Shown here piece after piece: positions 5,045 through 17,948 of a stretch of DNA of 22,259 nt (the first letter of the stretch is position 1; every line of letters begins with the position of its first letter). Under the pieces are notes generated by a model. The model did not search any database and was not told the DNA's origin. It worked only from the letters and a program-made list of their open reading frames with translations. The stretch is from a virus. The position numbers and the translations under genes are program-made. The stretch is from positions 1 to 22,259 of the IMG/VR virus record IMGVR_UViG_3300046467_002058; one strand, given 5' to 3'.

Positions 5045-5064
5045 GCTAAAGTATCCTTACTCAA

Positions 5065-5072
5065 TAAATAGT
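5065..5072 (-). promoter_or_regulatory. ACTATTTA motif, candidate phage late promoter (tape measure unit)
   Basis: The minus strand reads AACTATTTATTGAG, 20 bases before the tape measure ATG and directly after a weak terminator-like hairpin. It is one of six intergenic copies of the motif. The promoter role is inferred from position and recurrence. Confidence 0.5.
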
Positions 5073-5080
5073 TTGCATAC

Positions 5081-5106
5081 AAAAAGAGAGAGCTTTAACC
5101 CTCTCC
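5081..5106 (-). terminator. Weak intrinsic terminator or attenuator overlapping the short ORF stop
   Basis: The minus strand has GGAGAG, an 8-base loop, then CTCTCT, followed by C and five T. The stem is only five pairs plus a G-T pair, so termination would be partial. It lies between the short chaperone ORF and the ACTATTTA motif before the tape measure gene, where a unit boundary is expected. Confidence 0.35.
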
Positions 5107-5349
5107 ATATTTTTTCCCGTAAGAAATGGGTGCGGGAGGGCCGTTTGCTTCTGTGAGGGTGCTCGTCTGGGAACGTTGATTGCCACTTCCCTTGGACGCC
5201 TGTTCAATGGCTTCTTTTTCAGCCTCTAATTGTTTAACGAGCCTTTCAACAAACCACTTGCGTAGACCTATGGGTAAATTGTAGGCCTCCGCCAGTGACC
5301 AGCCTCCTGAATATTTCAAAAAGAAGAACTGCTCATACACGTTCTCCAT
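5095..5349 (-). CDS. Short overlapping-frame ORF, C-terminal part of tail assembly chaperone
   Basis: From the ATG at 5349-5347 the product has 84 residues: MENVYEQFFFLKYSGGWSLA, then EAYNLPIGLRKWFVERLVKQ, then a Ser/Gln/Pro-rich tail. The frame stays open upstream to 5493, overlapping the preceding gene in a different frame. The ATG lies only 4 bases after that gene's stop and has no ribosome binding site near it; the closest GGAGG is about 30 bases upstream. Expression therefore needs either coupled re-initiation or a ribosomal frameshift at the T7 run at 5374-5368. A small helical ORF between an assembly protein and the tape measure gene is the typical place for the second half of a tail assembly chaperone pair (lambda G/GT type). 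The protein segment looks conserved, but its function is inferred from context. Confidence 0.7.
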   Translation of the reverse strand: MENVYEQFFFLKYSGGWSLAEAYNLPIGLRKWFVERLVKQLEAEKEAIEQASKGSGNQRSQTSTLTEANGPPAPISYGKKYGEG

Positions 5350-5353
5350 GTAG

Positions 5354-6214
5354 TTAGGCGTCAGGCCAAAAAAAGTCCGCAGAAAGCGGCACCTCCAATT
5401 CACTCTCGTAATCGCATTCTGAGCATTCAAAATGTTGAGCGAGATCGATATTGGGGTTTGCTTCTTTGTAGGCTGCACGCAAGTGGCGTGCATCCATGGA
5501 TGGAATATTCTGTACCAGATAGTTGATGGCTTCAGCAGTAGTGTTTCCGTTAACTCCTACAATCATATTAAGAAGCTGCCTCGTGATATTTCTTTCATGA
5601 GTGTTCTTTTGCTTGCGGTCATGTTCCACTCCTTCTATAAAGCGCCGTTCATCGGCTCCATTTAAGAGCCGAAAGGTGATTTCTAACTTTGTGCGCGGAA
5701 GAAGAGTGGTGAAAGTGCCATCATTGTTGTTATTGGTAACATATGCCGGATCTGTATATCCAGTATAAGTCTTCCCATGGTTAAGATCAAAGTTATACTC
5801 TTGGGAAGTACTGCACTCGGGACATGTCACTGTGGTGTTGTACTCATTCCCATAAGCCGAGACACGTGCGGCGATAATAAGGGCATTTCTATCCCCTACC
5901 AGCAATGAATCAGGATGAATGGCTTTATTAATAATAATGCTCGCTAATACTCGTTCAAGCGCAATACCTTTCTTCAAAAGAGTTCTCGAAGTGAGGATAT
6001 CTTCTTCTTTAGCTGTCATTTGCTTGATTTCGATTGAGTCCATCCCATGCAGCGGATGGCCTTCATGATAGTATGCTCCCTTTGAGGGTAGATCTACCAA
6101 CTCGGTGGGAACAATAAACGAGAAGTCGTTTGTTTCCGTATTTTGGATTAATTGTTGAGTGGGGGCTGTATCTGCATTGGTTTGGGCGCCCATTCGATCA
6201 CTGTTTCTTGACAA
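5354..6214 (-). CDS. Baseplate hub/tail assembly protein, T4 gp26-like, with zinc knuckles
   Basis: A 286-residue protein matching my memory of the T4 baseplate (gp26/gp51-type) family of marine myoviruses: DLPSKGAYYHEGHPLHG (41-57), MTAKEEDILTS (66-76) and GDRNALIIAARVSAYG (107-122). Two CxxC pairs, C131/C134 (CPEC) and C264/C267 (CSEC), probably bind one zinc ion across about 130 residues. The likely start is TTG at 6214, because AGAGGTG sits 4 bases before it; the next ATG (6193, residue 8) has no ribosome binding site. The gene lies between the tube and tape measure genes. It overlaps the start region of a short second-frame ORF, with a T7 run five codons before its stop codon. It probably acts as a chaperone that loads tube subunits on the tape measure, or helps hub assembly. 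T4 names differ between annotations, so the symbol is left blank. Confidence 0.75.
   Translation of the reverse strand: MSRNSDRMGAQTNADTAPTQQLIQNTETNDFSFIVPTELVDLPSKGAYYHEGHPLHGMDSIEIKQMTAKEEDILTSRTLLKKGIALERVLASIIINKAIHPDSLLVGDRNALIIAARVSAYGNEYNTTVTCPECSTSQEYNFDLNHGKTYTGYTDPAYVTNNNNDGTFTTLLPRTKLEITFRLLNGADERRFIEGVEHDRKQKNTHERNITRQLLNMIVGVNGNTTAEAINYLVQNIPSMDARHLRAAYKEANPNIDLAQHFECSECDYESELEVPLSADFFWPDA
5368..5374 (-). promoter_or_regulatory. T7 slippery run, candidate programmed frameshift site
   Basis: The minus strand reads GAC TTT TTT TGG in the frame of the assembly protein (residues 280-283). A +1 slip, or a -2 slip of the Phe tRNA within the T run, enters the frame of the short ORF and gives a fusion of about 372-373 residues. 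A -1 slip meets TGA after two codons, so it would not work. This is inferred from sequence only. Confidence 0.45.
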
Positions 6215-6246
6215 TATACACCTCTTTTGAAATATCGTATGTGAAC

Positions 6247-6255
6247 ATTATAGCA
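6247..6255 (-). promoter_or_regulatory. Extended -10 sigma70-type promoter candidate
   Basis: The minus strand reads TGCTATAAT, a perfect extended -10 element, about 32 bases upstream of the TTG start of the gp26-like gene. The hexamer 17 bases further up is a poor -35 (GTACAA), which extended -10 promoters can tolerate. This unit lacks the ACTATTTA motif seen before its neighbours, so it may be read by unmodified host polymerase. Confidence 0.4.
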
Positions 6256-6274
6256 TGTTTAAGAGATTCTTGTA

Positions 6275-6865
6275 CTAGGATTGGAAGAAAGTGGTTGCTT
6301 CATTACCGCCCGTAGCGCGGGAAGGACCGTTAGGAGTTTGAAGGCGCGCCCAATCGTAGCGAAGCTCAAGGGTTAATTCTACCAAATCATCGGTACCGTA
6401 CGACAGGTCACCGTACTTAACATTTGTAATAAATGCATTCCATAAAGTCCACTTCTCAATCTCGTTGCCATCGCCATCAATCTGGGAAATGTATACCGCT
6501 CCGAGGGCACCCGCAGCGCGTGATTTTGACATAGTGCCAAGCGAGTTGGGGTTGGAAGGAGGAGTATAACCAGAAAGGTTAATGATGTCGGAAAGAGTAG
6601 CAGTCATATCGGGATCGCGGGGATCCACTAAGGTGACACTAATCGGCTCCCATTTCACTGAACCGGGGTAATAGAACGTATGGTTCAAGTATTGGTGCTC
6701 TGACGTTTCAATAGTAAACGCCGGCTTGTTGACGGACTTGGCATACCATAAGAGAGAACCTCCCTGTGGTGCGCTGATCCCTGTAAATTCAACCTTGAAC
6801 CTAAACTGACGCTTAGGATCTTTGAGTTGTGTGCTTTCGGCAAAGTTGTCTGACCAGAATGGCAT
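6275..6865 (-). CDS. 19: Tail tube protein, gp19-like
   Basis: A 196-residue protein, close in size to T4 gp19 (163 residues), placed directly after the sheath gene as in T4. Characteristic segments are DPKRQFRFKVEF (16-27), WYAKSVNKPAFTIETSEH, TFYYPGSVKWEPISVTLVDP and, near the end, LTLELRYDWARL. These match the beta-sandwich tube fold that forms stacked hexameric rings around the DNA channel. The start is set by TAGGAGC 8-9 bases before the ATG. A 47-base spacer with an ACTATTTA motif separates it from the sheath gene, giving the tube a possible promoter of its own; that would suit the high copy number needed. No oddity is seen in the coding sequence. Confidence 0.9.
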   Translation of the reverse strand: MPFWSDNFAESTQLKDPKRQFRFKVEFTGISAPQGGSLLWYAKSVNKPAFTIETSEHQYLNHTFYYPGSVKWEPISVTLVDPRDPDMTATLSDIINLSGYTPPSNPNSLGTMSKSRAAGALGAVYISQIDGDGNEIEKWTLWNAFITNVKYGDLSYGTDDLVELTLELRYDWARLQTPNGPSRATGGNEATTFFQS

Positions 6866-6891
6866 TTTAAATGGCTCCTATGTTCAATTGT

Positions 6892-6899
6892 TAAATAGT
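6892..6899 (-). promoter_or_regulatory. ACTATTTA motif, candidate phage late promoter (tube gene)
   Basis: The minus strand reads GAACACTATTTAACAATTG, in the spacer between the sheath stop and the tube gene, 26 bases before the tube ATG. Confidence 0.5.
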
Positions 6900-6912
6900 G
6901 TTCAGATTATTT

Positions 6913-9894
6913 TTAATCATCAAATGATGCGCCGGTGGAAGCAATTACGAAGTCAATCGCAATATATTCGATTGAACGGGCAGGCTTCACCATGATCTTT
7001 GCATACATGATGTTTTGATCGATAAGATCGGGGGTTGTAGTTGATGAATCAAGAATCAACTTGTAGTCAGAGATACCGAAGTTACTCTTAACATTCGCAA
7101 GGAACGGCTCAACAAGACCGATAAAGCGATTCCATGTGGTTTGCACATTCTGTTCAAAGAGAATCTTGGTGGAGATGACAGAGATTTGCTTCTTCAAGTA
7201 AATCACCAGACGTCTGACGTTAATTCTATCTAAGGCAGATTGCCTTTCTTGGAGAGTTTTCTGGCCGAACACCACGATTCCACTCGATGGGAATGAGGCG
7301 ATCGGGTTGATGTTGGCTTCGTAAAGAAGATCGCGTTGTTTAGAAGTTAGCTTCTCGGTAACCGCTGTGACGGGGATCCCCGCAGCGCCCTCCGAAAGGC
7401 CACCGCGATTGAACCCAGCCGGGGCGAACCACAGCTGTGCTTTCTTCTGAGAACTAGCGAGAACACCCAGCATTACTGTACTCGGAGGTACCCATACTGC
7501 GGCGCCGGTGTTGGCATCGCGAGTCTGGACCCAAGGGTAGAAGGTTGCGCCGTAAGAAGAGTCAATTCCTCGATCTCTCAGGGCCGTTGCTGCAGTTTGG
7601 GGGTTCCCCGGAACGCGTGCGGCGACAGTGCTTTTATATTCTTCAGCTACGGGGATGTAGATGTCGGGGAGATCAATAAGAGACATCGTATCGGCCCGCG
7701 ACTCGCACACGTTAATCATGTGCTGGGTCAACCCAGTTTGGGTGATGCCGGGTGCCGTGAGTAGATTAATCTCTACCTGTTCTGGCTCAGCGAGAGTATC
7801 GATGGCCCGCTTAAGGGTGTAGTATGCAGCGTTGTTTTTCTCAGTTGCTGCCGTCGACATTCCCTTATTATAGAGAGGATCTGGCAGCTTAATGTCAAAG
7901 CCGTCAAAGCCGCCCCAGAATGGAACAGTAAATCTATCGTAGCCCGCATCCAGCAGGTTGACATAGCCGCCCGAGATAGCGGTGTAGGAAGTTTCGCTGG
8001 TACGGGATCCCGAACGATAGAACAGTGACGTTGTTGACAGGCCAGCATCTTGAAGGTTGTCGAGGGTGAAGATATACGCATATCCATCAATACCAGTCTT
8101 CGCGAATGTGGAGTTGTCAGCGAGTGCTCCCATATCGTTGGTGAGCAAGTCTTGAACGTTCGGAGTACTTGGATCGAAGCGACTTGACCCGGAGTTGCGC
8201 GTTGGAGAGAAACCCCAGTATGAGTTTCGAGGGTTCGTAATACCGCCGTCGGATGCCGAGTTACGCAGTCGAACCGAGGGGAACTGAAGTTTAACCTCTG
8301 GTCGACTACCGGTCAGGGCTTCATTGGAGGCTGACAAAGTAAATGTCTCCCCGATAGTAATCTCCGCCACCGTTGACCCTGTGACCAATGTGATAAAACG
8401 AGACCCTCCGGAGGTGGGCTCGATTGAGGAATCTGATGTGCCGGCGATCTCCTTCAGTGTCGAAATCCGCACGTTATTGACGTCTGCCCATTTAGGGGGA
8501 CCATAGTAGCCGAATGGAATCAGTTTCTCCATGCCGGTTGCGCCGGCGGCGACGTCTCCGTTCATATCAACATAGATATACTTGGATTGGTTAGGATATT
8601 CGCCGTATTCCTTTAATCTCTTCTCGGTCTCATCCCATGTTGTATACCGATCGCCAATCTTGCGGGCGATATAGTTAGGTGAAGTCGGATCGAGTGAACA
8701 CTCATCATAGCGCTCCAAAATCTGTATAGCATTGTCTGAATCCCAGATGGCGCGGATAAGAACCGAGAAACTACCATAGTCGGTAGTGCTCGTGTTAGAT
8801 TGGCGGATGTTGGAAATCGAGATCTTAGCGTTCTTGTTCAACCATGCACCATGGCCGCGGCCAATCAAGCGGAAAAGCTTTTGGGTAGTAGCGGGGTTGA
8901 AGTCGCTGGCGAGTTCCGTGTCTTGTCCGATCATCCAGCCGGCGACTGCTTCACGGGCGACGCAACTAGAACCTAGACGGTTCGCAGGCGATGTTTGTCT
9001 ACTGCTGCTGAGGTGGATCGGCACGATGGCGCCCCAGCATTTCTGGGAGACATTATTACCTAACAGGTCTCGTATTTCTTGCTCGTAGGATTCTCCGAGC
9101 CAATAAGATTGTTCGGAGGCCGTTGGGTAGAAGTTTCCCGATGTATATAACATCGGATTAGTGTTGAATGTTTTTCTGACAAACTTGCTATTGCTATCGT
9201 CCATGCTAAATTCGTAGGATTTTGAGGCACCGGTGCCGTCGAGGTGGGTGGCCTTAAACACGCCGTCGCCGTCCGATAAGATAACTGTGCCCACTCCCTT
9301 ATAATTTAGGCGGCTGGCCTCAGAACTGGACCCAATCGTAGTTCCTGAAAGCATCATCAGGCCCGCTTCAAGGTACCAGATACATGCCAAGCTTCCTGTT
9401 AGGCCCGGGCCGCCGATGACTGAGCCACTGCTCGGCACCATTGATCCGGACGCTCCAATAAAGAGACCGTAGGCGCCACCACCTTGTGCGGTGGTAAGCA
9501 GGTTCTCCGTTCTCCATCCCGCCTCAGAAGAAAAATGGGGAGCATCAGCGGGAGAGACTGCGTCGGGGTGCTGGTGTCCGAGGGTTCTCACATAAGTGAG
9601 TGGTGCGATTCCTGCGTTCAGGAACGCTTTAGCTCCATATGTGCCGTATACGGGCGACTGGGTGTCGAGGCCGTTACGAAATACATCACCGCCGGCGGCG
9701 CCCGGTATCGTATCACCAAACATGGTTACAAACTCGGAATACGATTCCACCTTAACAGGCTGCATGGCCAATCCGGTTCTGGCTCGGCCGATAACCCCTG
9801 GGCCGATCTCTGTCGGCGAGCGGGGGATAAACGAGTTATCAATCTCGTTAATGAAAACTCCAGGGGAGACAAACTTAAATTTCTTTACTGACAT
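6913..9894 (-). CDS. 18: Contractile tail sheath protein, gp18-like, enlarged
   Basis: A 993-residue protein. The N-terminus has the usual sheath opening (KFVSPGVFINEIDNS, then GPGVIGRARTG and SYSEFVTMFG). The C-terminal third has RGGLSEGAAGIPVTAVTEKL, then LLYEANINPIASFPSSGIVV, RRLVIYLKKQI and EPFLANVKSNFGI. These belong to the core that binds neighbouring sheath subunits and the tube. T4 gp18 has 659 residues; the extra ~330 lie between about residues 100 and 650 and are rich in Ser, Gly and Thr, so they are probably surface domains on the sheath. GAGGAT lies 9 bases before the ATG. A 117-base leader separates it from the gp15-like gene; T4 genes 16 and 17 (terminase), which lie there in T4, are absent. 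The contractile tail makes this a myovirus-type particle. Confidence 0.93.
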   Translation of the reverse strand: MSVKKFKFVSPGVFINEIDNSFIPRSPTEIGPGVIGRARTGLAMQPVKVESYSEFVTMFGDTIPGAAGGDVFRNGLDTQSPVYGTYGAKAFLNAGIAPLTYVRTLGHQHPDAVSPADAPHFSSEAGWRTENLLTTAQGGGAYGLFIGASGSMVPSSGSVIGGPGLTGSLACIWYLEAGLMMLSGTTIGSSSEASRLNYKGVGTVILSDGDGVFKATHLDGTGASKSYEFSMDDSNSKFVRKTFNTNPMLYTSGNFYPTASEQSYWLGESYEQEIRDLLGNNVSQKCWGAIVPIHLSSSRQTSPANRLGSSCVAREAVAGWMIGQDTELASDFNPATTQKLFRLIGRGHGAWLNKNAKISISNIRQSNTSTTDYGSFSVLIRAIWDSDNAIQILERYDECSLDPTSPNYIARKIGDRYTTWDETEKRLKEYGEYPNQSKYIYVDMNGDVAAGATGMEKLIPFGYYGPPKWADVNNVRISTLKEIAGTSDSSIEPTSGGSRFITLVTGSTVAEITIGETFTLSASNEALTGSRPEVKLQFPSVRLRNSASDGGITNPRNSYWGFSPTRNSGSSRFDPSTPNVQDLLTNDMGALADNSTFAKTGIDGYAYIFTLDNLQDAGLSTTSLFYRSGSRTSETSYTAISGGYVNLLDAGYDRFTVPFWGGFDGFDIKLPDPLYNKGMSTAATEKNNAAYYTLKRAIDTLAEPEQVEINLLTAPGITQTGLTQHMINVCESRADTMSLIDLPDIYIPVAEEYKSTVAARVPGNPQTAATALRDRGIDSSYGATFYPWVQTRDANTGAAVWVPPSTVMLGVLASSQKKAQLWFAPAGFNRGGLSEGAAGIPVTAVTEKLTSKQRDLLYEANINPIASFPSSGIVVFGQKTLQERQSALDRINVRRLVIYLKKQISVISTKILFEQNVQTTWNRFIGLVEPFLANVKSNFGISDYKLILDSSTTTPDLIDQNIMYAKIMVKPARSIEYIAIDFVIASTGASFDD

Positions 9895-9909
9895 GATTTG
9901 GTAATCCTC

Positions 9910-9921
9910 ATAAATATTTAT
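9910..9921 (-). promoter_or_regulatory. 12-base palindrome upstream of the sheath gene
   Basis: ATAAATATTTAT is a perfect palindrome just upstream of the sheath ribosome binding site. The minus strand also reads AATAAATA across it, one base from the T4 late promoter consensus TATAAATA. It may be a second promoter or a protein site; it could also be chance in an AT-rich leader. Confidence 0.25.
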
Positions 9922-9948
9922 TGTCTTGTAGACGTCACAATCATTACT

Positions 9949-9956
9949 TAAATAGT
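9949..9956 (-). promoter_or_regulatory. ACTATTTA motif, candidate phage late promoter (sheath gene)
   Basis: The minus strand reads AAATACTATTTAAGTAATG in the 117-base leader of the sheath gene, 54 bases before its ATG. The rest of this leader (9895-10011) holds the palindrome at 9910 and no ORF. Confidence 0.5.
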
Positions 9957-10011
9957 ATTTGGGATTCCAAAAGGATGAACCAAAAGTAGAAAATAAGGTT
10001 TAGTTCCTGAA

Positions 10012-10887
10012 TTAGTCTTCCAAAAAGCCGGGTTGACCAGGAAGGGGGGATGACTCCCGCGGATAGGTGACTTCGACCACGCTCTCGTCCACCCTTACGA
10101 TTGAGCGATCATCGTTTTCACCTTCCCCAATGAGATAACCTAAAATCCTGATATTAATGGATGTTTCAAAGACCCTTAGTTCATCTCCGAGGTCCGCTAT
10201 GTTATTAGTGTGGGTAAAGTTCTGGTCTATAAACGCTTCATAGATATGACCATTCCTCCGCAGAAGGAATGAGTTAATCTGACCGGTACGAGTCATAAAT
10301 GGCTGTACTATCTGGTTCATCTGTTCCTGATATTCAGTCTTGATAACAATCTTATATTCCACATTCACATACACCGGGATTGGGATCGACAAGCTTTGGA
10401 TAACTACCTTTTTGTTTATTCGAGGATAGTAGTTTTGAAGTTTTCCTGCCGTGTTGGTCCGCGTGCCGTCTGCGACCGCAAAGTTGCGGGTTTTATCTTG
10501 TTTAATCTTTCGAGCGATAACCATGCGACCGGAGCGGCCATTTTGCCCGTCTTCATAGATATGTGCTTGATAACTACCCTTTCTTTCGGGATCTTTGGTG
10601 ATCCCCGTACGTTCAATACTCAAGACGGGCAAGATAAGAGATCCTTGCGTGTCTCGTAACTCTCGTTTAGCTTTTATTTGGTAGGCTCGCTCTGGAGTCT
10701 GCCAAAAAACCGGTACCTTGGTGTAACCGGCATTCGTTTTAGCACTTAGGTCCAGATCTTCTTTAACCCATGAAGTAATTGCGTAGTCAATCGTCTCGAT
10801 ATTGGATGAAAGCATCCCTATCTCTTCTAGAGTGGCATCAGTGGCATCCAGAGGTAGTTGGGCGAAGTCAAAATCATCAGGTAGCAT
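10012..10887 (-). CDS. 15: Tail sheath stabiliser/completion protein, gp15-like
   Basis: A 291-residue protein (T4 gp15: 272 residues). In T4, gp15 caps the finished tail, holds the last sheath ring and joins the tail to the neck. Supporting segments are TKVPVFWQTPERAYQIK (about 56-72), a LPVLSIERTGI strand, and IPIPVYVNVEYKIVIKTEYQ followed by EQMNQIVQPFM. The last resembles the T4 gp15 region where strands lead into a helix with the pattern QIVEQILPYF. Its ATG lies inside the end of the gp14-like gene (11-base overlap), with AGAGGAT 7 bases upstream, so the two are translationally coupled. Order gp13-gp14-gp15 is as in T4 and adds weight to a call that sequence alone would leave moderate. 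The C-terminal 35 residues are acidic and Pro-rich. Confidence 0.78.
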   Translation of the reverse strand: MLPDDFDFAQLPLDATDATLEEIGMLSSNIETIDYAITSWVKEDLDLSAKTNAGYTKVPVFWQTPERAYQIKAKRELRDTQGSLILPVLSIERTGITKDPERKGSYQAHIYEDGQNGRSGRMVIARKIKQDKTRNFAVADGTRTNTAGKLQNYYPRINKKVVIQSLSIPIPVYVNVEYKIVIKTEYQEQMNQIVQPFMTRTGQINSFLLRRNGHIYEAFIDQNFTHTNNIADLGDELRVFETSINIRILGYLIGEGENDDRSIVRVDESVVEVTYPRESSPLPGQPGFLED

Positions 10888-11365
10888 CGAATAATCCTCT
10901 TCTTGCGCGGCGACAGGTGCCCGTTATTTCAAAAGCGTGGTCGACTTGACCGAATAGCTTTCGAGGTTCGGACAATTTAACTATCTCATAATATATTTTA
11001 CCATACAAAATAAAATCGCCTGCGCGCACAAACAGATCCTGATCTTCCGTTAATCGTCTCTTATGGAAATGAACCGTGATGGTGGAATCGGTGTCAATGC
11101 CGACTGCGGAGAGATACGACGTTGCCTCGTCATTGAACTCGACCAGCGCATAGATTCGAACTGGGGGCAAATATGTCTTTTCTATTGCCTCTCCATATAG
11201 GCCATGGAAGTCGGTGGCTTCTAGATCAATAGGATAATATAAAATCTGTTGGCCAATTACTTTTTCAATAAGCTCGTCATTGACTTGCTTTACCAGATCA
11301 CGCTCTTTCTTACCTAAGAAGAGGGGTGGCGGTGGTGATTTCGGTCTTTCCCATTCGTTTGACAT
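10877..11365 (-). CDS. 14: Neck/head completion protein, gp14-like
   Basis: A 162-residue protein, shorter than T4 gp14 (256 residues). Shared with that family as I recall it are an early YYP segment (43-45), a GLYGEAIEK segment (56-63), a strand with DSTITVHFHKRRL (93-105), the turn VRAGDFILYG (113-122) and YYEIVKLSEPRKLFGQVDH (125-143). In T4 gp14 the corresponding part is a GDLIYFP turn followed by FEI-W-EP and QLG. In T4, gp13 and gp14 close the filled head and form the neck to which the tail binds. It starts 5 bases after the gp13-like stop with only a weak GGGG-type ribosome binding site, so it depends on coupling. The Pro-rich opening (SPPPP) is probably disordered. The C-terminus (CRRARRGLF) is very basic. 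Confidence 0.72.
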   Translation of the reverse strand: MSNEWERPKSPPPPLFLGKKERDLVKQVNDELIEKVIGQQILYYPIDLEATDFHGLYGEAIEKTYLPPVRIYALVEFNDEATSYLSAVGIDTDSTITVHFHKRRLTEDQDLFVRAGDFILYGKIYYEIVKLSEPRKLFGQVDHAFEITGTCRRARRGLFDAT

Positions 11366-11370
11366 TCAAT

Positions 11371-12645
11371 CTACCCCACAAAAATCGGTAAAGGAGAATT
11401 CTTAAATACATTCTGGCTAGCATCTGCCGATTCCGAATCGTATTTGACCAGTTCCTTGTATTCTGTCTCTTTGAGCATCTCCGATAACTTATCTTTTAGT
11501 TGTTGTTGCTCATCTTTTGCTTGACTCAGCAGTTCTTGGTGATTTAGGGTTACACTCTCGCCCGGAATAGGCAACGTCGTAAACTTTCCTCTAATTTGCG
11601 CTAGCATCTCTTTACATAATGCAAGACAATACTTCCTAATCCATTGTTTACCGATAGCATTGATATTAACATACGGAATATTATCGAAAGGAAGGGTGTT
11701 CATATTATTAACGCCCTCCACTCCATCGTTATAGCCGGAATTGGATGTAAATACCTCCAAATCTTGAACATAAAACCTAACCCACATGCTGTCAAGGTCA
11801 CTGAAGTCCCAGTGGCCCGGCTCGGGGTAAAGTCGGAGCTTGTTGTCGATTAGCTCATAGGAATAATGAGATGTGCGCGTAAAGATGTTGTCTTCATACA
11901 TTATCGCTTGCATTTTGTTCTGCCATGTCGGAATAAGCTCAAACGTCGAGTCATCGGCGAATTGGCCGTAAGTGGTCATATTTCCAACGACCCCTAAACC
12001 CCCATAATAGCCAAAAAAGCGCCACATAGAGCGAGGAGTCTTAAAGAACACCTTGGTAACAACCACTCTTTTGCCGTCGACCTTGCCGGCGAAGGGGACG
12101 GCGTTACCTTTCTGGTCGACACCGCTCGTAGAGGCGGTGTTGATGATTGCCTGCAAATCATAGTCTTGTTGTTTTGACTTGGGTGTAAAGGACGCAGAAT
12201 ATTGAGGCAACGTGCCTCCAAATCCAGCAATTGCTGACATGCCATCCCCAACTTTGCTAGCGTACGAAGCTTGAAAGCGTGGATAGCGCAAGTTTCCACT
12301 CACGGGGCCCGACAACAAAGTGCCGTCATGATTAAAGGTTCCGGTTGTGTTCCCAAGGGCTGTTGAAAGAACGTTCTTTCCTTGATGAAGATTAACGATG
12401 TACGAATACTCTAAAACAGCCTCTTCATAAGCCGCATAAACATTCCCCGTGGTAATCTCGATATCTACTACATCGCCGCCTAATTTTTTATAGACGAACG
12501 CAACCTGATCAACCGCACCACTAATAAAACCAGCGGAAGCCGTATATATTCCGAATGGGCACGCGCCCGTGACATCTGTGGTGGAACCCGTTGAAGTTAG
12601 TACAACCGCGCTGGTGGTTGATAATGGGCTTAAATTTGTAGGCAT
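11371..12645 (-). CDS. 13: Neck protein, gp13-like
   Basis: A 424-residue protein, longer than T4 gp13 (309 residues). Two blocks fit gp13: near the N-terminus KKLGGDVVDIEITTGNVY leading into AAYEEAVLEYSYIV (53-84), comparable to the T4 segment RRLGAP-INVEL followed by an amphipathic helix; and near the C-terminus GKQWIRKYCLALCKEMLAQI, an IPGESVTLN turn, a long helix with LLSQAKDEQQQLKDKLSEML, and a final PLPIFVG, where T4 gp13 ends in a similar GILVG. The central 200 residues are Ser/Thr/Gly-rich and unfamiliar, and probably form an extra domain. In T4, gp13 binds the portal side of the filled head and makes the neck ring with gp14. AGGAGGG lies 7 bases before the ATG. It is followed closely by gp14- and gp15-like genes. 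Confidence 0.78.
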   Translation of the reverse strand: MPTNLSPLSTTSAVVLTSTGSTTDVTGACPFGIYTASAGFISGAVDQVAFVYKKLGGDVVDIEITTGNVYAAYEEAVLEYSYIVNLHQGKNVLSTALGNTTGTFNHDGTLLSGPVSGNLRYPRFQASYASKVGDGMSAIAGFGGTLPQYSASFTPKSKQQDYDLQAIINTASTSGVDQKGNAVPFAGKVDGKRVVVTKVFFKTPRSMWRFFGYYGGLGVVGNMTTYGQFADDSTFELIPTWQNKMQAIMYEDNIFTRTSHYSYELIDNKLRLYPEPGHWDFSDLDSMWVRFYVQDLEVFTSNSGYNDGVEGVNNMNTLPFDNIPYVNINAIGKQWIRKYCLALCKEMLAQIRGKFTTLPIPGESVTLNHQELLSQAKDEQQQLKDKLSEMLKETEYKELVKYDSESADASQNVFKNSPLPIFVG

Positions 12646-12666
12646 TCATCAACCCTCCTGTGGTGA

Positions 12667-12921
12667 TTACTTGTTTTTGGTTCCGCGTTTAGAGGTTTTG
12701 GAAGATTTGGCTGTCTTCGTGCTCTTCGTAGAGGTGGTCTTCTCAGAACCCTTGGGGGATTCCTTGAGCACCGGTGCTGCCACTTCTTCAATCGCTTCCT
12801 CAACTGGCTTAATCGTCGGTGTGACGACAGCGGCTACTGGAGTTGCCACGGGGGCCTCCTCAACAGCAGCACGAGCGGCGTTTCTTCTCAGTCTTAAAAG
12901 ACGTTTCCATTTCTTACCCAT
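12667..12921 (-). CDS. Small basic Lys/Ala/Pro-rich protein of unknown function
   Basis: An 84-residue protein in three parts: a strongly basic helix (MGKKWKRLLRLRRNAARAA), an Ala/Val/Pro/Glu linker (residues 20-53), and a Lys/Ser/Thr tail with repeated TKS/SKT steps (55-84). The tail is like that of histone H1 or bacterial histone-like proteins, so nucleic acid binding is plausible, but no folded domain is visible. AGGAGAA 7-8 bases before the ATG and a motif-bearing leader show it is a real gene and the first of the neck unit. Small basic proteins of this build occur near capsid genes in marine myoviruses as I recall; whether this one enters the virion is not known. It could also be a scaffold-type or neck assembly factor. 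Confidence 0.75.
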   Translation of the reverse strand: MGKKWKRLLRLRRNAARAAVEEAPVATPVAAVVTPTIKPVEEAIEEVAAPVLKESPKGSEKTTSTKSTKTAKSSKTSKRGTKNK

Positions 12922-12954
12922 GATATATTCTCCTATATGTGTAAAGGTACCTAG

Positions 12955-12962
12955 TAAATAGT
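12955..12962 (-). promoter_or_regulatory. ACTATTTA motif, candidate phage late promoter (neck unit)
   Basis: The minus strand reads AGGAAACTATTTACTAGG, 33 bases before the ATG of the 84-residue gene and downstream of the strong terminator at 13031-13057. The remaining intergenic bases (12963-13030) show nothing else I can name. Confidence 0.5.
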
Positions 12963-13030
12963 TTCCTGTCTAACAAAAGTGAATATCTCCAAAATTTACA
13001 GGCGAAAAAATTGCAGAGATCGAGCTTTTT

Positions 13031-13057
13031 AAAAAAAACCCCGGCTTTTGGCCGGGG
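13031..13057 (-). terminator. Strong intrinsic terminator after the 157-residue gene
   Basis: On the minus strand CCCCGGC, a 5-base loop and GCCGGGG make a seven-pair all-GC stem, followed directly by eight T. It ends the transcript of the 157-residue gene 26 bases past its stop codon. Confidence 0.92.
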
Positions 13058-13083
13058 ATCTTTGTTTCTAAGTTGGGATGCCC

Positions 13084-13557
13084 CTATGCTTGGACCATAG
13101 CGCCGTGAGTCATGCCCTCAACGATCCACTGGGTACCGTTGCAGTAAAAGAAGAGGTGGTCACCAATGGCTGAACCTGCAATATGGGTAAGAGATGTCTT
13201 ATCATCAATCTCCACATGGCGGAATGCATCTGAGTTTGCGCCGAAGGCGCCTCCATTATGGACATAGGCTCCAAACAGTGTGGTCTCGGTAGCTGTGGTC
13301 TTAATAACATGGGCCGAAGAGTGGCCAGAAATAAAAGTAAAATGGCACCCTGTCGACGATGTCGCCGGCGGCAGCGTGTATATTTGAGCAGATGAAGTAG
13401 GGCTCATGACAGCACCTGAATCATTGGCTGTTAAAACTTTCGTCGACGTGTATGTCTTATTTCTATTTCCGGTCAGTTGGCCCGTCATCATAAGACGTGG
13501 GATTGCAAAATTCTCAAGCATTTTCTTGAGGCGGGCGATGTTCTGGTTAAAGGCCAT
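13084..13557 (-). CDS. Small beta-structured virion protein, possible head decoration or fiber
   Basis: A 157-residue protein I do not recognise by name. After a helical N-terminus (2-25) comes a beta-rich domain: VLTANDSGAVM (41-51), IYTLPPATSSTG (59-70), HFTFISG, and at the end GDHLFFYCNGTQWIVEG (132-148). The DSG...LPPA..TG...W pattern is a common module of phage fiber and capsid-surface proteins. A related form is seen at the C-terminus of the fiber-like protein at the right edge of this window (LPPA at residue 258, TG, and NWWVIS at the end). The gene stands alone between two strong terminators, directly after the capsid gene, with AAGGAGA before its ATG. A separately transcribed, well-translated surface protein such as a head decoration fits; a short fiber or whisker part also fits. 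Confidence 0.82.
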   Translation of the reverse strand: MAFNQNIARLKKMLENFAIPRLMMTGQLTGNRNKTYTSTKVLTANDSGAVMSPTSSAQIYTLPPATSSTGCHFTFISGHSSAHVIKTTATETTLFGAYVHNGGAFGANSDAFRHVEIDDKTSLTHIAGSAIGDHLFFYCNGTQWIVEGMTHGAMVQA

Positions 13558-13607
13558 TGTGAAGAGTCTCCTTGTGGGTTATATGTATAAAATACTCTTT
13601 TCTCTAT

Positions 13608-13615
13608 TAAGTAGT
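13608..13615 (-). promoter_or_regulatory. ACTACTTA, one-base variant of the intergenic motif
   Basis: The minus strand reads GGATACTACTTAATAG, 50 bases before the ATG of the 157-residue gene and just after the capsid gene terminator. It differs from ACTATTTA at one base. Confidence 0.4.
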
Positions 13616-13627
13616 ATCCTCCAATAC

Positions 13628-13656
13628 AAAAGCCCCCGTCGATTGACGGGGGCTTT
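13628..13656 (-). terminator. Intrinsic terminator after the major capsid gene
   Basis: On the minus strand GCCCCCGTC, loop AATC and GACGGGGGC form a nine-pair stem, extended by AAA/TTT to twelve pairs, with TTTTGTATT following. It lies 30 bases past the capsid stop codon and separates capsid transcription from the next gene. Confidence 0.9.
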
Positions 13657-13685
13657 AAATATTTAGCTTCTACTTGCTTTTAAAC

Positions 13686-15491
13686 TTAGCTAGTAGAGCC
13701 GCTCTCACCAATCATGCCGCGAATAACGACAAGGCCGTACATATCGGGACGCACCATCTTCTTAGCGTACCGAGTCATCACGCCCTTGCGAGGCACGAAG
13801 TCTTCTGGTCCGAAGATAGTTGGTGTGGTCTGCAGTGGGACGTACGGAGCGTACACATATCCGCTTTCAAGGAAAGAAGATCCGCGACGGCCGACGAGAA
13901 CCAAGTTACGCAAGAAGTATGGATCAACGTATACGTCGAACTTCTTGGTCAAGGCTCCAACCTTCACAGCGCCGATGGAGCCACGCTCGTCGTCACTAGT
14001 GACGGAAGCACGGAAGCCAGCAGTGAACTCAAGGACGTTAGCAACTTCAGGTCCGCAGACAATAAAGTTAGCTCCGCCGCGAAGAGTCTTGCGGTGAATT
14101 GCAGCAGACACATCGTTGATTGTTTCAACGAGAGTCTCATACCACTCGGATACAGTACCGGTGAAGTCGGGAGCCTTAGTGGCAGCACCAATTTCAGCGC
14201 CTGTGTCACGGTTGACAAAGAGACCTGGAGAACGGGCCCAGTACTTAGTACCGGCACGAGCGCCACGGATTAGATCTTCAAGGATCTCTTGATCGATTTC
14301 GAGAGCAACTTGCTCCGAAAGGATACTTGTCAACTCAACCTCAGCATCAAGGTTGTGGTAGGCGTTAAGGTCTTGACCTAACTCCGGTGTCCACTTAGCC
14401 TTGAGCTTCTTGGTCACAGCCGTCACAGCCACGGAATCGACTTTGATGTCAATTTCTGGGATGTTTTGGTTGTTTTCCAAGCCCCATGGATCGTCACCGA
14501 TCACAGAGCCGATCGCACCACCGTTGACGAAGTCGTCAACGATTGGCCAAGAGCCAGATGCGCGAGAGCCAAGAGCCAGATCGGATCCACATGCACCCGT
14601 AAGAGCTGCCATAAGGTCAGCCGCGCCTGTGCTACCGTCGTAGGAAGCAACAACAACAAGAGCATCACCTGTCGCGCCCGAACCAGTGATTCGGGTAAGA
14701 CGCTTAAGCTGTACACCCCCAACGTCAGAACCAGTAAGGTAAACACGGGCCATTCCACCAGCACCAGCAGATGCGGAGATGACGATTGCATTCAAGTTAC
14801 GGTTACCGTTAGAAGCGTCAAAGTCAGTAAGCTGACTAAGGGCTACAAGGCCTACAGCGACAGTCGCAGTACCAGACTGCGACTCAAGTTCAGGATCGAA
14901 CTCACAAAGCTTAGCGATGTCACCAGCAGAAGAGCTGTAGACACTGGAGCTAAGCGCTCTAATGAGCATTTGGCCTGACCCGGTTGGGGAAGCATACCCG
15001 TTGTTAAGGTTGTAGGGACCATCCTCGGCGTATTGGCCGGCAAGATCCACACCACCAGTCAACTGGGCAGCTACGACGTTACCACCGTAGAGCGACTCTT
15101 CATCCCCTTGAGGATCACCATATCCCAGACGCGGAAGACCCGCACCGTTACTTGAGATAGTGAAATCCAAGAAGAAAATGAGACCGCTTGGCAGACTCAT
15201 TGGTTGAACGGAAACGAGTTCGTTTGCGATCAAGCCAGCGAAAACACGACGAACGATGGGGAACGCGACGGCTGCAAAGCCCTCAACATCTCCACCCTTC
15301 ATTGTCGAAGTCTCGCGAAGTAGTTCTTTTGCTTGATTTTCAAGCAAGCGAGCCATAGAGTTACGTTTGCTGTCACCAACAAGTCCCTCTAAAAGACCAG
15401 TCTTCTCCCATTTAGAAAGAAGAGCTGAACCTTCTGCTCGCATATCACGATTGACCATACCTTCGGTCAATCTTTCGATAATACTAGACAT
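13686..15491 (-). CDS. 23: Major capsid protein, gp23-like
   Basis: A 601-residue protein (T4 gp23: 521). The N-terminus aligns with T4 gp23: LLSKWEKTGLLEG then ARLLENQAKELL (24-59). FPIVRRVFAGLIANELVSVQ and PMSLPSGLIFFLDF are the gp23 hallmark where the HK97-type fold begins. The C-terminus has PTIFGPEDFVPRKGVMTRYA and RPDMYGLVVIRG. In T4 the gp21 protease removes an N-terminal piece after an L/I-x-E motif at E65; here LLRE ending at E60 is the matching site, although no protease gene is in the window. Its ribosome binding site (AAAGGAGGTGAT, AGGAGG 8 bases before ATG) is nearly fully complementary to the 16S tail, as suits the most abundant virion protein. It follows the scaffold gene by 32 bases and has its own terminator. 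Confidence 0.95.
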   Translation of the reverse strand: MSSIIERLTEGMVNRDMRAEGSALLSKWEKTGLLEGLVGDSKRNSMARLLENQAKELLRETSTMKGGDVEGFAAVAFPIVRRVFAGLIANELVSVQPMSLPSGLIFFLDFTISSNGAGLPRLGYGDPQGDEESLYGGNVVAAQLTGGVDLAGQYAEDGPYNLNNGYASPTGSGQMLIRALSSSVYSSSAGDIAKLCEFDPELESQSGTATVAVGLVALSQLTDFDASNGNRNLNAIVISASAGAGGMARVYLTGSDVGGVQLKRLTRITGSGATGDALVVVASYDGSTGAADLMAALTGACGSDLALGSRASGSWPIVDDFVNGGAIGSVIGDDPWGLENNQNIPEIDIKVDSVAVTAVTKKLKAKWTPELGQDLNAYHNLDAEVELTSILSEQVALEIDQEILEDLIRGARAGTKYWARSPGLFVNRDTGAEIGAATKAPDFTGTVSEWYETLVETINDVSAAIHRKTLRGGANFIVCGPEVANVLEFTAGFRASVTSDDERGSIGAVKVGALTKKFDVYVDPYFLRNLVLVGRRGSSFLESGYVYAPYVPLQTTPTIFGPEDFVPRKGVMTRYAKKMVRPDMYGLVVIRGMIGESGSTS

Positions 15492-15495
15492 TTAA

Positions 15496-15507
15496 ATCAC
15501 CTCCTTT
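15496..15507 (-). promoter_or_regulatory. Near-ideal ribosome binding site of the capsid gene
   Basis: AAAGGAGGTGAT pairs along its whole length with the 3' end of bacterial 16S rRNA, and its AGGAGG core is 8 bases from the ATG. It is the strongest such site in the window and follows an A-rich unstructured stretch. Confidence 0.9.
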
Positions 15508-15523
15508 TTTTTATAAATTATGA

Positions 15524-16726
15524 TTATTTTATTCCAGCTAAACGACGCATTCTATCGGAGAATGGATCGTTGGGTTGTGACGACTCTTGACGAGTCGCCC
15601 GGATAACAGAAGACCGACGACCGATAGCTTCGCTCAGTGATTGTGGGCTTTGCCTAACAGGCTTAGCCTCCACTGTGCTTTGAAGCGTATCAAAAATGGT
15701 TTTGGCTTCTGTAACCGAACCGGCGGTGGAAATCGCTTCGACAATTTTATCTTTTTGTCGCTCATTTAAGGAGGAATTTCTTAAAACACGGTTCGTGTAT
15801 AGTAAGCGAGCATTCGAAAGATTAACCTCATAGAGGTTTTCTTTAATCTCTCCAATAGCGTGCTTATATTTATCTAACTGAGCCTTCAGTGAATTGTTTT
15901 CATCTTCAAGTTCAGTAATTGATTCGTTTAATTCAAGTTCTGGATCCAACTCGGCTTCTTCGTCGGTTGTTTCCGTGGGCGTCGAGGCTGCTCCAGCCCA
16001 TGCGCGCTGTTGGCCAAGCTTAAGCTGGCTCGTTGGGCGCCCAGCCCATCCCGAAAGCTCAAAACCGGTGTCGACATTCAACTTTTCCATTACAGCGTCG
16101 ATGATGTCCTCGGTATTAATACTATCTTCGTCAAGATTGGCGAGACCAGCCATGGCTTTCGAGTCTGCCTCTTCTTCGTCGGCTTCGTCATCAACAGTGA
16201 CATCCAACTCTTCGTTGGTCTCTTCTTTTGTAGCGCTAGCGCCCTTCATGGGTTCTTTCGTATCGCCATCATCATCCAAATCAAGGAAGTCGGGCTTCGC
16301 TTCGCTCAGTTCTATGTCAATGTCCTCATCTAAGGAACCAGCGAGGGCCTCGATGGACTCTTGGAGGGCACCAAGATCGATGGTAATCTCTATGTCTTCG
16401 CCATGGCCAGGGAGATCAGAAAGATTGTGGCCATCATTTTCAGCTAGTCCGTCGGTGGCCGCGAAAGGAATATCATCCTCTGTAACTGGAGTGGCGGGGG
16501 TTGTCTCGTCCATCGGCTCTTCGGGCAACGATGCTAAATCGGGGGGTGCGTCCATTGTCTCGGCAGGCGGCATGTCCATTGCTTCTTCTTCTTGTTCTAA
16601 AAGTTGTTCCAATGTCTTTTTAACTTCGTCAGAATATTTCTCAATAATTGTGCTTTCAGCATTTTTTAACGCGCTTGTGCGCAATGCTTTGGCATCGACG
16701 ATCGCCTCCCCAAGTAAACTAGACAT
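15524..16726 (-). CDS. 22: Prohead core scaffold protein, gp22-like
   Basis: A 400-residue protein from the ATG at 16726, chosen because GGGAGAG lies 6 bases upstream; the frame is open to a TTG at 16756 without such a site. T4 gp22 (269 residues) forms the core inside the prohead around which gp23 assembles, and is then digested. Matching features are an N-terminal helix (MSSLLGEAIVDAKALRTSAL), a very acidic Asp/Glu-rich middle (about 45-265), and a C-terminal coiled coil (about 270-300) followed by NARLLYTNRVLRNSSLNERQ and KDKIVEAI, the segment I recall as conserved in gp22. Its place directly before the capsid gene is as in T4. Residues about 147-160 read DFLDLDDDGDTKEPM, an EF-hand-like calcium loop. 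The size is larger than T4 because of the acidic middle. Confidence 0.85.
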   Translation of the reverse strand: MSSLLGEAIVDAKALRTSALKNAESTIIEKYSDEVKKTLEQLLEQEEEAMDMPPAETMDAPPDLASLPEEPMDETTPATPVTEDDIPFAATDGLAENDGHNLSDLPGHGEDIEITIDLGALQESIEALAGSLDEDIDIELSEAKPDFLDLDDDGDTKEPMKGASATKEETNEELDVTVDDEADEEEADSKAMAGLANLDEDSINTEDIIDAVMEKLNVDTGFELSGWAGRPTSQLKLGQQRAWAGAASTPTETTDEEAELDPELELNESITELEDENNSLKAQLDKYKHAIGEIKENLYEVNLSNARLLYTNRVLRNSSLNERQKDKIVEAISTAGSVTEAKTIFDTLQSTVEAKPVRQSPQSLSEAIGRRSSVIRATRQESSQPNDPFSDRMRRLAGIK

Positions 16727-16758
16727 GAATTCTCTCCCTATTTGACAATAATTCAAAA

Positions 16759-16766
16759 TAAATAGT
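16759..16766 (-). promoter_or_regulatory. ACTATTTA motif, candidate phage late promoter (scaffold-capsid unit)
   Basis: The minus strand reads TTATACTATTTATTTTG in the 109-base spacer between the propeller and scaffold genes, 32 bases before the scaffold ATG. The rest of the spacer has a weak CCACTTT/AAAGTGG inverted repeat with a 15-base loop over the propeller stop, too weak to call a terminator. Confidence 0.5.
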
Positions 16767-16835
16767 ATAAATGAGAGTCAAAACCCATTTTTAATAGCAT
16801 TATTGTCCACTAAAGCCACTTTTGTAGTCCTATAT

Positions 16836-17948
16836 TTAAAGTGGAAAATATTTGTTAAGTGCAACATACTGTATATCTTCTGTTCCGGAATCAAAGACAA
16901 GTGCACTGGCGCCTGAACTCCACGTGGTTCCATCATCGACGCTATAAGAGATATTTCCACCATTATGAACGACTACCCAGTTGCCCGCCCCGTCGCCGGC
17001 AATTGAATTTGCGCTCCCGTATGGCAAAACATTAATAAAGCGTGCACCGCTAGCACAAGAGTCTGTGCTGCGCCAAATGTCGTCGGAGTTTATTGCTATT
17101 ACTGTTGAAAGTCCTGCTGAAGCCGTAGACACGCAGGCCATCATATGGCGGTCTGTCGCGTTTGAACCCAACAGTGTGTCAGCAGTAGAAGTCCAACTAC
17201 CGGAACTTGCTGCATCTGCATATGCCACCACTTCACTCGCGCCGCCACCGCCGGCGGCCTTGGTGCACCACACAAACCACCTAGCATTTGAATAACGCAC
17301 GTCAAAACAATCACGATCATCATCGAAATCCTTCAATAAATACCAATTCGCACCTTGGTTGTTGGACGCATACAACCTATCTTCCTGCGTGAATATCCAG
17401 TTATTTCCCCCATCTGTCCCTATTCCCTTTGAACTTACTGTTGAAATGTCGGCTAGCGCGCTGATGTCGACGGTATTCCATGTAGCACCATCGCTTGAAG
17501 TTAAAACTGTTTGGGCCCCGCTATTCATAATGCCGGCGCCGACCCACTTATCATTACTCCACGATACAGCAAAAATCTTTCCGGAACTAATATTAATATC
17601 GGTCCAAGTGCCGTCTGTCTCTGGATCATCAGACCAACGCAATTCTCTGTTACCATCACTGGTTGTGCAAACCCATCGAGGATTTGTAGAGCCATCTTTA
17701 CCATATGCGAGATAGGCATAGTCGGTCGTAGTGTTTGGATCTCTGTATCCAACCCAGCCTGTAACAGGATTGCCCGGGGTCTCTTCAACGTGACCAAAGG
17801 CACCATCCTTGCCGGCGGCGATCCAAAGATTGTCTACGCCCGCACTCGGGGTGGTGGATCCATTAATACTAGCAATGCTACCTTTAAGGGCCCCATTAAC
17901 ACTAGTGATTGCAGTTGTATTAACATCATTAAGTTTGCTATATGACAC
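16836..17948 (-). CDS. Beta-propeller (Asp-box) protein, putative receptor-binding fiber tip
   Basis: A 370-residue protein with at least five Asp-box/BNR-type repeats, each a hairpin ending in S-x-D-x-G-x-x-W or a variant: 105-115 (SDDPETDGTW), 151-157 (SSDGATW), 195-202 (SNNQGANW), 336-343 (SVDDGTTW), and weaker ones near 244-252 and 294-301. Preceding strands such as FAVSWSNDKWVGAG and NNWIFTQEDRLYAS fit propeller blades. The first ~30 residues are Ser/Thr/Asn-rich and may attach to the fiber. No sialidase catalytic set is evident, so binding rather than cleavage is more likely. The start is GTG at 17948, which shares one base with the TAG stop of the fiber gene (TAGTG); GGTGAT lies 6 bases before it. 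The coupling suggests fixed amounts of fiber and propeller, with the propeller as the receptor-contacting part or an adhesin cap. Confidence 0.78.
   Translation of the reverse strand: MSYSKLNDVNTTAITSVNGALKGSIASINGSTTPSAGVDNLWIAAGKDGAFGHVEETPGNPVTGWVGYRDPNTTTDYAYLAYGKDGSTNPRWVCTTSDGNRELRWSDDPETDGTWTDINISSGKIFAVSWSNDKWVGAGIMNSGAQTVLTSSDGATWNTVDISALADISTVSSKGIGTDGGNNWIFTQEDRLYASNNQGANWYLLKDFDDDRDCFDVRYSNARWFVWCTKAAGGGGASEVVAYADAASSGSWTSTADTLLGSNATDRHMMACVSTASAGLSTVIAINSDDIWRSTDSCASGARFINVLPYGSANSIAGDGAGNWVVVHNGGNISYSVDDGTTWSSGASALVFDSGTEDIQYVALNKYFPL

Follow-up and report, generated by a model that had tools for sequence, protein, structure and literature searches.

The late promoters of phage T4, which carry the word TATAAATA and are served by gp55, gp33 and gp45, are among the closest described systems to the one considered here. 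PMC2988020 describes the T4 late promoter as a box of 8 bp lying roughly one turn ahead of the start, with AT-rich DNA just downstream and without conservation at -35, and PMC1524935 locates this box at -13 to -6. The two papers give the late consensus of the Aeromonas phage Aeh1 as (a/g)CTAAATA, with a C at -12. For the Far-T4 phages Roux et al. 2015 (PMC4360716) did not detect the T4 core transcription-regulation genes. A literature search that left subscription papers mostly outside returned no match for the octamer described below together with phage, none for CTATTTA as a late promoter and no description of Far-T4 late promoters. Here we present evidence that this octamer, ACTATTTA, is likely to be the -10-like (-13 to -6) element of late promoters in a marine branch of the Far-T4 phages, most likely read by a gp55-type sigma factor, with a predicted purine start at +13/+14 counted from the first base of the octamer.

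Results

A recurrent octamer in front of structural genes

The window analysed is a phage fragment of 22,259 bases in which every gene lies on the minus strand. Family searches identified the major head protein gp23 (13686..15491, minus strand; phrog_138, E 5e-69), the tail sheath gp18 (6913..9894, minus strand; phrog_23, E 1.7e-66) and the tail tube gp19 (6275..6865, minus strand; phrog_4542, E 3e-25), the latter two downstream of predicted promoters, and also matched a gp15-like tail sheath stabiliser, a gp13-like adaptor, a baseplate hub protein and a baseplate wedge subunit. An earlier sequence-only reading of this DNA had reported five exact copies and a one-base variant of an octamer, all in one orientation, 20-54 bases before start codons and with no exact copy inside a gene, and each of these observations is borne out. 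ACTATTTA occurs five times, on the minus strand only and so in the gene sense, and all five copies fall within the 861 bases of intergenic DNA. These exact matches, each a predicted -13 to -6 element, lie at 5065..5072 (for the 840-residue probable tape measure gene onward), 6892..6899 (gp19), 9949..9956 (gp18), 12955..12962 (an 84-residue gene with gp13-gp14-gp15) and 16759..16766 (gp22-gp23), and are followed by a start codon after 20, 26, 54, 33 and 32 bases respectively. The variant ACTACTTA is found at 13608..13615 on the same strand, 50 bases before a 157-residue gene. The gap at the gp22-like gene was counted to the ATG at 16726; the longest open reading frame there opens with a TTG at 16756, 2 bases past the octamer.

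Dinucleotide shuffles of the window led us to expect 0.69 copies of ACTATTTA on both strands and none of 100 shuffles reached five, while a second-order Markov model predicted 0.36 copies on the sense strand (P about 3.5e-5) and about 0.06 in the intergenic bases (P about 6e-9). With one mismatch allowed, as in the scan that had been proposed for the whole genome, the window has 17 matches, which is at the chance level (16.6 expected), so it is the exact word that carries the signal, along with two particular variants, ACTAATTA and ACTACTTA. No minus-strand sigma70-like site (TTGACA, 16-18 nt, TATAAT) was present at the window octamers. Three of the sites follow terminator-like hairpins, as the earlier reading had also noted: a rho-independent one at 13039..13057 on the minus strand (CCCCGGCCAAAAGCCGGGG then TTTTTTTT) upstream of the 12955 site, one at 5085..5106 on the same strand directly before the 5065 site and a GC stem just before 13608.

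Distribution of the octamer in related phages

A search of IMG/VR with the window gp23 gave at least 600 matches, indicating that viromes from the ocean commonly contain Far-T4 phages, and among the matches listed we took 80 ocean loci of 59-75% identity as relatives. In the 948 kb that these 80 contigs make up together with the window, ACTATTTA ranks first among intergenic 8-mers and occurs 261 times in the sense and 4 times in the antisense orientation, with 213 of the 261 sense copies fully intergenic although intergenic DNA makes up 5.4% of bases. A start codon usually follows 17-60 bases downstream. ACTAATTA is split 64 sense to 7 antisense and ACTACTTA 46 to 2, a bias like that of ACTATTTA which marks the 13608 variant as a real member of the class. 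The T4 word TATAAATA has 19 sense and 64 antisense copies in the relatives and is thus not used. De novo motif finding by EM with a zero-order background gave noisy results, most of its runs picking up coding composition, so strand-asymmetric k-mers were used as motif evidence instead.

The individual window sites have counterparts in the relatives. Before the gene that follows the 16759 site there are 56 intergenic relatives, with a mean pairwise identity of 0.96 over the octamer, and the leader of the 84-residue gene has 59 intergenic sites, that of gp18 has 53 intergenic relatives with an octamer site and that of gp19 has 25; six relatives have one before the same probable tape measure gene. 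In the leader family of the 157-residue gene position 5 of the octamer is mostly C (58%).

Long relatives show the same orientation bias, with sense to antisense counts of 21:0 in G017, 12:1 in G018, 13:0 in G019 and 8:0 in G023. The octamer is not confined to structural genes, since in the long relatives some half of its copies are found outside the structural block. In G017, G018 and G019 the ACTA[TAC]TTA sites are spread across the genome, with 41 of 80 inside the block, against 20 of 102 sigma70-like promoters (P 9e-6 for the difference), and this depletion of the sigma70-like class suggests that it is chiefly the octamer class that serves the block. Phage RM378, which we also looked at, has neither a ACTATTTA signal nor a gp55 match.

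The octamer extends to a cultured phage, Flavobacterium phage vB_FspM_immuto (NC_055915), where ACTATTTA is found at 12 intergenic positions in the sense orientation and once in antisense. Several genes, gp20 among them, have it 18-21 bases upstream, and the primase gene has it 61 bases upstream. Its early-looking region of small genes (60-76 kb) has a separate motif, TTG-N19-TATATTTAGGTAT. The word TATATTTA was considered as a variant late motif in immuto and rejected: with a fixed TTG some 20 bases ahead of it, and clustered as it is at 60-76 kb, it looks more like a host-sigma promoter. As a cultured carrier of the octamer, immuto offers a ready system for testing the promoter.

Promoter geometry

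When 209 intergenic sites from the relatives were aligned on the octamer, purines were found at +13 in 84% (P 1e-21) and at +14 in 81% (P 2e-18), counted from the octamer start, with a T-rich stretch at +8 to +11. The same script applied to T4 recovered 32 TATAAATA sites, the number of perfect late sites given in PMC2988020, with a purine at +13 in 81%. This shared offset places the octamer at -13 to -6 relative to a predicted start, and an AT-rich 8-bp box followed by a purine 13 bases after its first base is common to T4 and these phages. In the window all six sites have a purine at +14, and two have one at +13, where the other four have T. The predicted starts, all on the minus strand, are 16752..16753 for the gp22-gp23 unit, at motif start +13/+14 where the relatives have their purine peak, and 5058-5059, 6885-6886, 9942-9943, 12948-12949 and 13601-13602 for the other sites. 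With the layout of a T4 late promoter before the particle-building genes of this large group of uncultured ocean phages, ACTATTTA is very probably their switch. Transcription would begin at the purine 13-14 bases after the octamer start and each copy would open a structural transcription unit, whose expression is presumed to be late on account of its gene content.

An AU-rich word that is nearly always in the sense orientation and mostly 17-60 bases before start codons could also serve in RNA processing or mRNA stability, as a site within the leaders of polycistronic late mRNAs; RNA processing had been raised as an option in the earlier reading. We regard this as highly improbable, because the +13 purine peak and the conserved sequence near -33 described below fit promoters and not cleavage sites, and because a strong stem, often a terminator, lies at most 60 bases upstream in 80 of 297 intergenic sites, where read-through RNA would stop before reaching the octamer.

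A second element upstream of the octamer

The alignment of sites on the octamer also showed a conserved sequence of about GGCnTTT at -20 to -13 before the octamer, or about -33 to -27 from the predicted start. Five non-orthologous leaders compared in a single register (those of the 84-residue gene, gp22, gp18, gp19 and the 157-residue gene) have pairwise identities of 0.39-0.62 at -20 to -13 against 0.27-0.37 in both flanks. A further 259 sites that had previously been unused again gave a peak of TTT starting at -16, in 20 of 129 sites with a ribosome-binding site and start downstream and in 20 of 130 without, compared with 1-10 sites at most other offsets and 1 of 73 control octamers. The marine-branch promoter would thus carry a second, weaker element in addition to the octamer. 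The 32 T4 sites treated in the same way have no such upstream element.

Four of the six window sites have the T part of the element. The gp22 site has GGGTTTTG at 16779..16786 (predicted -33 to -26), in a leader family where the G is present in 77% and TTT in 95-98%; the T part is also seen in TCACTTTT (12975..12982) at the site of the 84-residue gene and in ATCCTTTT (9969..9976) at that of gp18. At the 157-residue gene the predicted -33 to -26 element, GGGCTTTT (13628..13635), overlaps a terminator-like hairpin in its 3' arm and T tract. CTCTCTCT (5085-5092) at the tape measure site and TGATTAAA (6912-6919) at the gp19 site are poor matches, all of these being on the minus strand. Some leaders retain only the G part, as in gp19 where G is found at -19 in 84%.

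Such an overlap raises the question as to whether the conserved GGCnTTT is nothing other than terminator T tracts packed against promoters that have a single element. The element does overlap a terminator stem in part of the sites (the 80 with a strong stem) and GGGGCTTT is frequent among intergenic words. Terminators do not explain the conservation at 192 stem-free intergenic sites, which keep the same register with T at -14 in 82% and G at -19 in 52% (octamer frame), and stems are found in only 3% of gp22 and 0% of gp18 leaders, yet T occupies -15/-14 in 93-97% of them, so that we consider this explanation unlikely. A scan of all viral contigs for GGCTTTTG-N12-ACTATTTA returned 24 stretches against 25 for an N17 control; this is the chance level and is no evidence for the spacing.

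A gp55-type sigma factor as the candidate reader

A 233-residue protein of the relative G001 matches the late sigma family phrog_234 and the same gp55-like gene is present in G017-G022 and G024. These matches are modest (E 3e-7 to 2e-4, also 3e-4), and an HMM built from 80 homologues added gp55 in G023, in immuto (E 3e-32) and in Microcystis phage Mel-JY01 (E 7e-23), the last of which has no clear octamer signal. The window stops short of the gp55 gene, which is known here from relatives. The gp23 proteins of G017, G018, G019 and G023 are 65-68% identical to that of the window, which together with gp55 in the same genomes ties the sigma factor to the phage type of the window.

The gp55 of the relatives is extended by a C-terminal domain of some 65 residues that hardly varies within the marine branch (EIFNKKAIYLYLREITGLNTKQVVNN), and ends after it in KWESGEI where T4 gp55 ends in SLDFLYEAND; judged by eye from the alignment, the hydrophobic-acidic clamp-binding C-terminus is not present in the relatives. 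In a predicted model (mean pLDDT 79) the protein is helical, and its end resembles a helix-turn-helix. Fold searches with the whole model gave weak matches, several of the top ones being sigma factors (SigB at E 0.25, sigmaE region 2, SigA and SigI), and those with the C-terminal domain alone gave weak matches, mostly to winged-helix and homeodomain folds, with E above 1. The gp55 alignment, used as a profile against PDB sequences, gave no match.

Searches for companion proteins covered G017, G018, G019, G003, immuto and Mel-JY01. Neither gp33 (phrog_254; controls T4 at E 1.6e-33 and Aeh1 at E 3.5e-21), of which a very divergent form would escape, nor the gp45 clamp searched as PF09116 (control T4 at E 4e-53) was found in them. 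The DNA polymerase of G018 has a bacterial DnaE-like beginning and matches phrog_405. No T7-like RNA polymerase (PF00940) exceeded the cut-off in eight relatives, in a search run without a positive-control genome. A cysteine-rich protein of 79 residues with sigma region 4 (PF04545, 36.9 bits against a cut-off of 24.1) is encoded by G003, G017 and G018 and was not detected in immuto or Mel-JY01, and a ACTATTTA site lies at most 120 bases from the end of its gene in 14 of 15 loci. Among these very few genomes its distribution parallels the presence of GGCnTTT.

The phage gp55-type sigma would most likely bring the host RNA polymerase to ACTATTTA. Reading by an alternative sigma factor of the host instead is quite improbable in our view; GGCnTTT and ACTATTTA together do form a two-element layout unlike that of T4 gp55 promoters, but the geometry is exactly that of T4 late promoters, the octamer recurs in a Flavobacterium phage and these phages have a gp55 of their own and, in other parts of the genome, make use of a separate class of sigma70-like promoters. 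The sequence-only reading had proposed a phage-specific late promoter read by a gp55-type sigma and had suggested comparing strands and intergenic with genic density and looking for a gp55 homologue. That proposal is now well supported by both comparisons, by the purine +1 at the T4 offset and by the gp55 homologues found in the long relatives and immuto. Its single-element style has given way to a promoter with a second element 13-20 bases upstream of the octamer, and gp45, which it had named in the T4 comparison, was like gp33 not detected in relatives carrying gp55.

Discussion

Recognition of GGCnTTT could be explained if Far-T4 phages use a two-part promoter whose upstream part is read by the C-terminal domain of gp55 or by the 79-residue protein, with no gp33 or gp45, so that late transcription would be uncoupled from a T4-type clamp and near-ancestral. 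We offer this reading tentatively and regard it as possible rather than probable. If true, the sigma would have a DNA-reading region 4 function that was lost in T4 and would be close to the ancestral state that gave rise to the split gp55/gp33 of T4. The promoter word and its probable sigma bear on the question of why the T4 late sigma is split into gp55 and gp33 and tied to the replication clamp, and they offer a means of recognising late genes in contigs from uncultured phages.

In comparison with T4 the system described here shares the box at -13 to -6, the downstream T-rich stretch, the offset of the purine +1, the sense-strand copies before structural genes and a phage-encoded gp55-type sigma. 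It differs in having ACTATTTA, with ACTAATTA and ACTACTTA, in place of TATAAATA or its known near variants, in the conserved element at about -33 to -27 found in five leader families where the T4-type promoter has none, in a gp55 with an added helix-turn-helix-like C-terminal domain and without the T4-like clamp-binding tail, and in that neither gp33 nor gp45 is detectable in the relatives that carry gp55. As two features that define the promoter and three that define the system were looked for and not found, on sequence grounds it is a variant of the T4-type late promoter and not a strict member of that class. Aeh1, judged from PMC1524935 and PMC2988020, shares the C at -12 (for A) and TA at -11/-10 and at -7/-6, and its CTAAATA differs from CTATTTA in two bases, AA for TT at -9/-8; it has gp33, and the passages on its late promoter in these papers describe no second element. 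Immuto shares the octamer and encodes a homologue of gp55 that carries the same C-terminal domain, and the GGCnTTT element is not clear in it, unlike in the marine branch. The Far-T4 phages of PMC4360716 likewise have a divergent T4-like gp23, with RM378 as a common relative, and in contrast to that report we find here a gp55 homologue and a likely promoter.

Motifs and putative regulators in related phages

Sites of the octamer class ACTA[AT]TTA were also seen within genes of the window's relatives, repeatedly at a fixed distance from the gene end. These were noted in the L083, L074, L043 and L076 contigs (G001, G002, G003 and G006) and are possibly internal promoters; in a 1050-aa gene the distance to the gene end is 121 bases, and in a 527-aa terminase-like gene it is approximately 310. 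Several leaders of the 84-aa gene family, which encodes a small basic protein, share another conserved sequence, TTTTTGAGATTTTCG, located 15-35 bases upstream of the intergenic octamer ACTATTTA (relatives such as L006-L085), and a looser form, TTTTGGAGATATTCAC, occurs in the window ahead of the octamer at 12955.

The relatives also share a cysteine-rich protein of 70-80 residues containing sigma-70 region 4 (PF04545, above cut-off), whose gene (L259:3001-3237 and relatives; 134906-135145 in the long relative G018, gp23-sense orientation) usually has ACTATTTA at its stop codon or shortly past it. In the cultured phage immuto approximately 20 near-identical TTG-N19-TATATTTAGGTATCAATAATTAAAAC sites precede small genes at 60-76 kb of NC_055915 (L231-L236 and L088) and are probably early promoters read by a host sigma factor.

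Gene content

The 132-aa ORF of the window (5095-5493) overlaps the baseplate hub gene (5354-6214), and comparison with relatives suggests a shorter true gene of about 71-80 aa with a predicted internal start at MENVYEQFF. A 1094-aa protein of the window (17948-21232) is made up of near-identical repeats, SGSGDIAVSGAIHAANFYGDGSGLT, and had no PHROG match. G018 encodes a GroEL-like chaperonin (139211-140782, gp23-sense orientation) and, instead of a recognisable T4 gp43, a bacterial-type PHP/DnaE-like DNA polymerase (126726-130166, same orientation).
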